From an uncultured bacterium (GTDB lineage Bacteria; Planctomycetota; UBA1135; UBA2386), in NCBI GenBank assembly GCA_937906475.1, contig CALCZA010000054.1:1-64000 (forward strand): 64,000 nt of DNA. The letters are read 5' to 3'. This document shows, one piece after another, positions 39,308-42,176 of the stretch. The position numbers and the translations under genes were made by a program. The number at the start of each line of letters is the position of its first letter. Position 1 is the first letter of the stretch. Under the pieces are notes generated by a model that ran no database searches, was not told the DNA's origin, and worked only from the letters and a program-made list of their open reading frames with translations.

Positions 39308-40277
39308 CGCATCGCCGGCAGCAGCAGGAAGTTCTTCAAGCTCTGCCGGCCGGCCGGTTGTCGCGGCGCTGCTGCTGAACTACCGCGGTGCTGATATGAC
39401 GCTGCAGTGTGCGCGCGACTTGTTGGCCATTACGGATGTAATGCTCAGCATCGTCGTGCTCGACAACAACTCAGGCGCCGGCGAGGTTGCTCAATTGCAG
39501 CAGGGCATCGCTGACATGCCGCGCGGCCAGCACGAATTACATGTGCTGCCGTTTGCCGAGAACTTTGGCTTCGCCGGTGGCATGAATCGCGGCATTGAGT
39601 TCGCGGCGCGCGAGAAGATCCCGTTCGTGCTCGTGCTCAACAACGACATGCGGTTGCCGAGTGACTTTGTGCTGCCGCTGCTCGACGTGTTGCGCAATGA
39701 CCCGGCCGTGGGCGCTGTCGGCCCGACGGTAGTGCATCCAGATGGCACGGTGTGGGCCGAAGGTGGCGAGCTTGGGTTTGTGCCCAATGGTCTGCGGTTG
39801 ATTCGCCACGGCCAAAAGCCGAGCGACGTCACCGATGGCCCAGCAGAGGTCGGCTTCTTGACTGGGGCCTGCATGATGATGCGCACCGAGGTGGCGGGGG
39901 GCGTAGGCGGCTTTGATCGCAACTACTTCATGTATTGGGAAGACGTCGCGATTAGCAGCAAGTTGCGGCGGCGCGGTCTGCGCATCGTTTGGTTGCCGTG
40001 GGTGCGCGTCGAGCACCTCGGTGGTCAATCGTCAGGTGGCGGCCGCTCGCCGCTGCGCAAATTCTTGATGGCGTGCAACGCCGTGCGTTACTTGAAGGCG
40101 CACGGTTCGGTCAAGGCGTGGGCCGGTTGGTTGCTGTTCGATGTGCTGCTATGGCCGATCACTTTCGTGATGGGGCCCGCAGCGGCGTGGGCGAAGATGC
40201 GCGGCACGATGGCCGGATTGTCGGGGCACACTGCGAACGCCAACGATGTTGCGCGCTTTCTCGGCGAGAAGGCCTGA
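39300..40277 (+). CDS. Family-2 glycosyltransferase
   Basis: A 325-residue enzyme with ALLLNYRGADMTLQCARDL, IVVLDNNSGAGE, LVLNNDMRLP, and FMYWEDVAISSKL. A hydrophobic segment lies near residues 275-300. GTG 39300 lies inside the previous gene's end. It is the last gene of the glycan cluster and ends 4 bp from the convergent Rho-like gene. Confidence 0.88.
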   Translation: MADASPAAAGSSSSSAGRPVVAALLLNYRGADMTLQCARDLLAITDVMLSIVVLDNNSGAGEVAQLQQGIADMPRGQHELHVLPFAENFGFAGGMNRGIEFAAREKIPFVLVLNNDMRLPSDFVLPLLDVLRNDPAVGAVGPTVVHPDGTVWAEGGELGFVPNGLRLIRHGQKPSDVTDGPAEVGFLTGACMMMRTEVAGGVGGFDRNYFMYWEDVAISSKLRRRGLRIVWLPWVRVEHLGGQSSGGGRSPLRKFLMACNAVRYLKAHGSVKAWAGWLLFDVLLWPITFVMGPAAAWAKMRGTMAGLSGHTANANDVARFLGEKA

Positions 40278-40281
40278 CGCC

Positions 40282-41535
40282 TTACTTTGAGTCGCTCATC
40301 GCTGCGACCCAATGTGCCGCGCGATCGTGATGCGGCAGTGCCGCCAGGTCGGTGCGAAGTTGGCGTAGCTTTTCGGCTAGCACTGCCAGCGCTGGGTTGT
40401 GCTCGTCTCGGGTCTGTGTTGCGGAGACGTCGAAGCAGAGTCCCTGGCACGTTGTGGCGGTTGCATCGATTACGACATCGCTATTGGTTAGCGCTACGAA
40501 CTCACGTTCGATGGCCTCGTCGATGGTGCCGGTCTCGCTAGTCGTCACGGTCGCGATCACCGTCAACGAACCTCCGTGTTCGCATTCTATCGTGCTGGCG
40601 AGCACGTTTTTGGCGAGCAGGATGGCCTTCGCGTCGAGTCCTGGTTGGATCCACGATCCCGAAGGAGCGCTCGAACGGCTCCGCGCCCGCGTCAATGCGG
40701 TTAGCGAATCGATTAGCAGGATGACGTCGTGGCCTTGCTCGACCTGACGCATGCAGCGTTGCCACGCGAGTTCCGCCACTATGACGTGGCGTTCTGGTGG
40801 CGCTGCGAAGGCTGTGCTGACCAGGCACGTGCCCGAAGCGGTGAGGCCCGAAGCGATCATGTCCCGAGCGGTGACGATGTCTTCCGGCCTCTGGTCTAGC
40901 AAGCAAACAGTGATGTCTGCATCTGCGTGCTGCTCCTGCAAAGAGCAGGCTAGCGTCGTAAGAAAACGTGCGCGCGGCCACCTCGCTGGAGCATGCACCA
41001 GCATGCGGCTGCCGAATGACATTGGTGCGAGCGTCTGCATCGCGTGCAACATGAGTTGCGTGTCATCATTGGCTGTCGGTTGGACGTCGGTGAACAGCAG
41101 CGGCCGGCTGGTCGCGATCGCCGTGCGACTTCTGAATCCCGTCACGCTCATCAATTGCTCGGGTGGCGTGTCTTGCACGAGGTCGACATGCACCAGGGCA
41201 AGCGTGTGTTCGTTACTGCGCGGGATACAAAGTTCGCCGCGGATGCGATGACCCGATTGCAGGTTGAGGCTGCGCACCTGGTTGGCGCTGACGTAGGCGT
41301 CTACGGCTGTGATTTGGAAATCGAGCGCCACTATGCGGATGAATCCAAAGCCATCTGGCAGAACATCTAGCACACCATCCGCGGTGACCGTCTCGCCGTT
41401 CTCCATCATGTTGGTGGCGATGGCTTGCACCAGTTCGTCGTGCTGCAAGTGGGGTCGCAAGCCGATGCTGCGCTCGGTTGCCGTGGTCAGCAATTGCTCA
41501 CGGGTGAGATCAAGCAGGTCGGTGAGCGAGGTCAT
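40282..41535 (-). CDS. Rho paralogue with a destroyed ATPase site
   Basis: A 417-residue protein with Rho architecture: a Rho_N-like helical start (LTDLLDLTREQLL), a cold-shock-type RNA-binding part (GVLDVLPDGFGFIR, 54-67, then YVSANQVRSLNLQSGHRIRG), and a RecA-like core that keeps Walker B (VILLIDSLTALTRA, Asp276), HGGSLTVIAT and the surrounding strands. Walker A, normally APPKAGKT, reads APARWPRA at 182-189: Gly, Lys and Thr are replaced by Pro187, Arg188, Ala189. The catalytic Glu segment DERPEE reads DQRPED. So it probably cannot hydrolyse ATP. It overlaps coaE by four bases. It may regulate the active Rho or act as an RNA-binding protein; the working rho must lie elsewhere. Confidence 0.88.
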   Translation of the reverse strand: MTSLTDLLDLTREQLLTTATERSIGLRPHLQHDELVQAIATNMMENGETVTADGVLDVLPDGFGFIRIVALDFQITAVDAYVSANQVRSLNLQSGHRIRGELCIPRSNEHTLALVHVDLVQDTPPEQLMSVTGFRSRTAIATSRPLLFTDVQPTANDDTQLMLHAMQTLAPMSFGSRMLVHAPARWPRARFLTTLACSLQEQHADADITVCLLDQRPEDIVTARDMIASGLTASGTCLVSTAFAAPPERHVIVAELAWQRCMRQVEQGHDVILLIDSLTALTRARSRSSAPSGSWIQPGLDAKAILLAKNVLASTIECEHGGSLTVIATVTTSETGTIDEAIEREFVALTNSDVVIDATATTCQGLCFDVSATQTRDEHNPALAVLAEKLRQLRTDLAALPHHDRAAHWVAAMSDSK

Positions 41536-42176
41536 GCGCTGGGGTCTAGTTGCAGAAGAAGGTCGTCGACTGCTTGTTCGGTTGCCGACAGGTCGCCGTT
41601 GTTGTCGATTATGTACTGCGAGCGGGCTCGCTTGTCAGCGAGCGGAAGTTGGTTCTGTTCTCGTCGTATCAGTTCGTCGTCGGCCCAGCCGCGGCTGCGA
41701 GCACGCTCGGCGCGGGCTTCGTCGCTGGCCTCGACGAACACGACCGTGTCGCAGATTTCGAATAGTCCCGCCTCGAACAGCAGTGGCACGTCGAGCAGCG
41801 CCGAGTCGCCCCGCTGCCGGGCGGAGTCTAGCGCGGTTGTGATCCGTTGGCGCACCCTCGGATGCATGATCGCCTCCAGTCGCGCCTTCGCTTCGGGCAC
41901 CCGAAAAACGTGATCTCCGAGTGCTGCCCGGTCGAGTTGGCCACCCTGGACGAACCGGTCGCCAAGCTGCGCGGCCACTTCCGCGAGCGCCTGAGGGTCC
42001 TCGGCGACCGCTTTCGCATGGAAATCCGCATCTACATGAAGGAATCCGCGGGCGCCAAATAGGCCCGCGACCTTCGATTTTCCGGCCGCGATGCCGCCCA
42101 CCAGTCCGACGACTAGAGGGGGTTGGGGTCGAAAAGGGCCATTTGGGCCCGGATTCCCGGTAGGGGGTGCCGGCAT
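41532..42176 (-). CDS. coaE: Dephospho-CoA kinase
   Basis: A 214-residue enzyme performing the last step of coenzyme A synthesis. Walker A GGIAAGKSKVA (28-38), then ADFHAKAV, the lid region with HPRVRQRI, and LLFEAGLFE. An N-terminal proline/glycine-rich extension of about 20 residues precedes the P-loop. Its stop overlaps the start of the Rho-like gene (ATGA), so the two are translationally coupled. Confidence 0.93.
   Translation of the reverse strand: MPAPPTGNPGPNGPFRPQPPLVVGLVGGIAAGKSKVAGLFGARGFLHVDADFHAKAVAEDPQALAEVAAQLGDRFVQGGQLDRAALGDHVFRVPEAKARLEAIMHPRVRQRITTALDSARQRGDSALLDVPLLFEAGLFEICDTVVFVEASDEARAERARSRGWADDELIRREQNQLPLADKRARSQYIIDNNGDLSATEQAVDDLLLQLDPSA

Follow-up and report, generated by a model that had tools for sequence, protein, structure and literature searches.

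A coaE-linked Rho orthologue, predicted to be motor-dead, is conserved across a family of Planctomycetota

Introduction

Rho is among the most conserved bacterial motors. The 64,000-nucleotide stretch of DNA analysed here (the window) carries, at 40282..41535 on the reverse strand, a gene for a Rho homologue in which the Walker A motif has been replaced, and this raises the question of what such a protein is, and what it could do. Rho ATPase residues are described as strongly conserved, divergent Rhos included (PMC8828861). No paper on a Rho without Walker A was found in the literature searched, outside which most subscription journals lie, so that priority is not established. The initial annotation had seen in the gene a paralogue of the real Rho which might still function without hydrolyzing ATP.

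Results

The window gene encodes a Rho fold with altered motor motifs

The open reading frame begins with an ATG codon and encodes a protein of 417 amino acids, listed here as a motor-dead Rho (RhoA*). The protein contains a PF07497 Rho_RNA_bind domain (62.6 bits, gathering score 27) and matches PF00006 at 33.1 bits. It scored 218 bits (E 2e-64) against TIGR00767 rho, below the curated cut-off of 509 bits, and 128 bits against NF041509 paralog_Rho2, for which the curated cut-off is 628 bits. AlphaFold2 modeled it as a complete Rho (pLDDT 88.0, pTM 0.89) with a RecA-type core fold. The top PDB matches of the model were all Rho, the closest being chain B of E. coli Rho 6wa8 (Z 45.5, rmsd 2.5 over 405 residues). 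The RNA-binding and RecA-like folds recognized by the initial annotation are thereby borne out, as are the motif changes that it listed (APARWPRA, Gln215 for Glu, Walker B kept), which were seen again upon alignment.

For the E. coli Rho sites used here other than K184, E211, R212, the Arg finger and K326, we assume the roles that are generally known; the roles of those named follow PMC8828861. Alignment to 13 and 84 Rhos placed residues 182–189 (APARWPRA; 40969..40992, reverse strand, as are all features below) at the former Walker A, where R188 occupies the position of the Walker A Lys (E. coli K184) and no GKT is found. The catalytic Glu (E. coli E211) is replaced by Q215 (40891..40893), and the adjoining Arg valve is kept as R216 (E. 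coli R212). Both the Walker B Asp, D276 (E. coli D265; motif at 40705..40728), and the Arg finger, R376 (E. coli R366; 40408..40410), are present in the alignment and site table. The Lys residues of the secondary site are gone, with Ser for K283 in the Q-loop (40633..40668) and Thr for K326 in the R-loop, and the equivalents of E. coli R269 and R353 are also lost. As neither Walker A, nor the catalytic Glu, nor the secondary-site Lys residues are found, the name "Rho termination factor" is unsuitable for this protein.

The cold-shock-type primary RNA-binding domain (residues 48–127; 41155..41394), located by the PF07497 match and the site table, retains GFGFIR, D79-Y81 and E109, and with them the equivalents of E. 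coli F62, F64, R66, D78, Y80 and E108. The primary site is imperfect in this copy, having Thr for Y110 and His for R109.

Loss of the P-loop Lys extends across the family

We searched 34 genomes of the window's GTDB family (phylum Planctomycetota) and found a coaE-type Rho in 32. The P-loop was readable in 31 copies, comprising 28 full copies in the site table and fragments from G015, G023 and G030; a fragment from G032 ends before the P-loop and was left out of the 31. The P-loop Lys was missing from all 31 readable copies (31 of the 34 genomes), every one of them an open frame. At the same locus, the other families of the order have APPRTGKT and DERPEE, save for part of one family (f6, described below), and GKT and DERPEE are likewise intact in all named outgroups. 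Among 79 genomes drawn across the phylum, the only full-length Rho matches scoring below 300 bits, leaving out those cut by contig ends, were two members of the window's family.

The full copies fall into two groups. In the less-changed group Arg stands for Lys in 10/10 copies (APPGSGRT, SPPHSSRT, APPNSRRN); DERPEE, E211 and Walker B are kept in all ten, R269 and T338 are missing in all ten, and R353 is retained in one. In the more-changed group of 18 copies, which includes the window's, GKT is erased (whole in the window's genus), Arg occupies the Lys position in 12/18, and E211 has become Gln in 16 copies and Ala in two. The sequence of loss is Lys-to-Arg first, followed by Glu-to-Gln and the loss of the secondary-site Lys residues. 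Across the family hardly any copy keeps R353 or T338, whereas the Arg finger R366 is retained in every copy that reaches its position, and N340 and D265 are also kept despite the lost ATP site. In the primary site, F/Y62 was found in 27/27 readable copies and E108 in 28/28.

The same losses are thus shared by the homologues, as the initial annotation had suggested checking, and with loss family-wide and the frames open, a lone mutation or single-strain pseudogene is ruled out. An assembly artefact is ruled out by the family-wide loss together with constant coaE linkage in independent genomes.

The gene is not universal. Two family genomes (G001 and G009) have coaE with the rho gone, and G042, of family f6, also has coaE and no rho; the dead rho is dispensable in this sense. 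In the surrounding DNA that was read, coaE stands without rho at L160/L181 (G001), L163/L182 (G009) and L166/L180 (G042), and in each of the three genomes RhoB, the second Rho described below, lies on another contig. The reading frame of a further copy (L011, in G002) is shortened.

The dead copy occupies the ancestral coaE-rho locus

The upstream partner of the window gene is coaE, encoding dephospho-CoA kinase (41532..42176; PF01121, 141.9 bits, and synteny). The two genes share an ATGA, confirming the 4-bp overlap first noted from the sequence, and the same overlap was found in 4/4 members of the window's genus. It suggests, from gene layout, translational coupling of rho to coaE. The modeled rho start lies about 127–461 bp past the coaE stop in the less-changed copies; in most of the more-changed copies it overlaps coaE by 1–16 bp, and in four it lies 11–140 bp beyond. 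On its other side, the dead rho is convergent with a glycosyltransferase-like open reading frame, the two ends being 4 bp apart (window 40277–40282).

Directly upstream and on the same strand, coaE was present in 28/28 family copies with a readable flank. It is also upstream of intact rho in Phycisphaerae, Chlamydiota, Kiritimatiellae, Methylacidiphilaceae and Desulfobulbaceae. The dead copy therefore sits at the ancestral coaE-rho locus, as the positional orthologue of ordinary rho, and in the tree the dead Rhos of the family form one clade with support of 100. The initial annotation had taken the gene for a derived offshoot of the real Rho; synteny and tree rule this out, and it is the intact copy that belongs to another lineage.

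One coaE-linked Rho of another family (L050, f8; G098:C64:2468-3688) has an intact Walker A and is broken by one in-frame TAG, which may mark a copy breaking in that genome or an assembly error.

A second, intact Rho belongs to a separate lineage

An intact rho was also to be looked for elsewhere in the window's genome, and was found at G000:C26:2-1204, with VAPPRSGKT and LLIDERPEE present and the N-terminus cut by the contig end. Hence neither of two outcomes that the initial annotation had set against its own reading, a genome with no intact rho or a lone mutation, occurred. This second Rho (RhoB) forms a separate clade (support 100), had no coaE linkage in the stretches read and is only about 31% identical to the window protein. 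Against NF041509 it scored 363 bits, also under the 628-bit cut-off. Two Rho genes are common in Planctomycetota, one full-length and one shorter with an altered primary RNA-binding site, and in the family RhoBs that were read this site is degenerate, with F62, E108 and Y110 missing. RhoB and the Rho2 short form (NF041509) resemble the window gene in being one of two rho genes in a genome; RhoB, however, combines an intact motor with a degenerate primary site, the opposite of what is seen in the window gene.

The N-termini of family RhoBs (L001:2-100, L032, L034) start with a long Gly-rich stretch, ahead of which L032 and L034 carry an Arg/Gly-rich run (RGGRRRRRRRGGGG). This region is possibly an alternative RNA-binding or phase-separating region.

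Constraint has shifted toward the RNA-binding domain

When intact coaE-linked Rhos from the order were compared pairwise, identity was 0.39 in the RNA-binding domain (CSD) and 0.72 in the RecA core, a ratio of 0.54. The corresponding ratio was 0.85 for the named intact Rhos and 0.66 for RhoB. In the two dead-Rho groups it was 1.22 (95% 1.09–1.36) and 1.07 (0.90–1.24). Judged by these identities, constraint has moved: the motor is the better conserved part in intact Rhos, whereas in dead Rhos the RNA-binding domain equals or exceeds it in conservation.

The dead rho is also, at the sequence level, under purifying selection, with dN/dS of about 0.25–0.37 in both domains within the window's genus, where dS is near saturation. 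Third codon positions vary the most. It evolves fast nonetheless: the window protein and its counterpart in G003, of the same genus, share 48% identity, as against 87% for RhoB.

Motor loss also occurs within a second family

In family f6, three Rhos (L046 in G052, L165 in G049 and L164 in G061) lack the P-loop and stop short of the Arg finger. All three retain GFGFLR and YVSP, and CSD identity exceeds RecA identity (0.67 and 0.53 for L164 vs L165; 0.57 and 0.42 for L046 vs the intact L043), whereas the intact pair L043 and L044 gave 0.73 in both domains. The best tree grouped these dead Rhos with f6, apart from the window's family (f1). That the dead Rhos of f1 and f6 go back to one shared loss was considered and set aside, as they lie apart in the best tree and intact copies occur in f6 as well; in the AU test a joint clade was not formally rejected (p 0.06). 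Motor loss in f6 was probably independent of that in the window's family, with the same domain kept.

Discussion

We conclude with high confidence, from the sequence evidence, that the window gene encodes a conserved motor-dead Rho orthologue which has kept its RNA-binding domain, in a genome where a second Rho is intact. It is like E. coli Rho (TIGR00767/PF07497) in tree descent, coaE-rho synteny, fold, primary RNA-binding domain, Walker B Asp and Arg finger, and unlike it in having lost Walker A, the catalytic Glu, the Q- and R-loop Lys residues, R269 and R353, and in sharing its genome with another, intact Rho. M. tuberculosis Rho likewise has a natural Thr at the R-loop Lys (K326) position, with motor activity that is weakened yet still present (PMC8828861). 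Unlike the window protein, it keeps Walker A and the catalytic Glu along with the Arg valve, and it is the essential Rho of its host (PMC8828861).

As to what the protein does, we lean toward a pseudo-Rho that binds RNA without translocating along it and modulates the action of RhoB on C-rich RNA. In this family, which also has RhoB, the ancestral coaE-linked rho would have lost its ATPase before the members diverged, leaving a protein with the Rho fold and primary site, presumably without normal ATP binding or hydrolysis and so unable to pull RNA through the ring. Such a protein may grip C-rich nascent RNA through its primary site, may be produced together with CoaE through translational coupling, and could shift where RhoB can load or act. 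We infer in this way RNA binding, oligomerization, the coupling to coaE, the absence of ATPase activity and the way in which RhoB is affected. The early proposal of a function without ATP hydrolysis survives in part: the conservation pattern favors N-terminal RNA binding, and translocation through a ring is disfavored because the Q-loop and R-loop Lys are lost as well. Psu and Rof would be comparable in that they restrain Rho without being a termination motor, but they are unrelated proteins that bind Rho itself, whereas the candidate regulator here is a Rho (PMC11718236, PMC11018607).

Slow decay would explain the fast evolution of the dead rho, its complete disappearance from G001, G009 and G042, the C-terminal truncation in f6 and the shortened frame in G002. 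RhoB would have taken over, and the coaE-linked gene, now doing little, would persist through its tie to coaE and the slowness of loss. We consider this unlikely, since a dead P-loop stands in an open frame in 31 of the 34 genomes of a deep family, with the G032 fragment in addition, and since dN/dS is low in both domains and variation greatest at third codon positions. Against decay there is also the RNA-binding domain, which has been held back from change in both families, and the Rho fold that AlphaFold2 still predicts with confidence.

Instead of modulating RhoB from outside, the dead protein might join it in a mixed ring, in which it would supply its Arg finger and also the primary RNA-binding site missing from the RhoB motor. 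The complementary state of the two proteins and the retention of R366, N340 and D265 beside a ruined ATP site fit such a ring. We did not accept Arg-finger retention as proof of it: the more-changed copies retain 34 and have lost 31 of the 99 sites that intact Rho conserves, so that keeping R366 is unremarkable when one third of conserved sites are kept regardless. Against co-assembly stand the loss of R353 and T338 from almost every copy, the truncation of the f6 dead Rhos ahead of the Arg finger, the survival of RhoB by itself in G001 and G009, and the low identity between the two proteins, all of which make a mixed ring quite improbable. We give a similarly poor chance to a Rho split over two genes, in which a primary-site protein and a motor protein would act as a two-component or mixed-ring terminator. 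Unusual use of ATP, with Arg replacing the P-loop Lys, can draw on the Arg found in every less-changed copy beside DERPEE and Walker B, and is very improbable given that the window's genus has lost GKT entirely and has Gln in place of the catalytic Glu, with R269 and R353 lost in the window protein too.

An ancestral rho that is motor-dead across a whole family and yet selected, together with a probable second origin, offers a natural test of the functions that a Rho can have by RNA binding only. RfaH is a specialized paralogue of NusG. If the pseudo-Rho reading is true, the window gene would provide a comparable case, a regulator of Rho that is itself derived from Rho.
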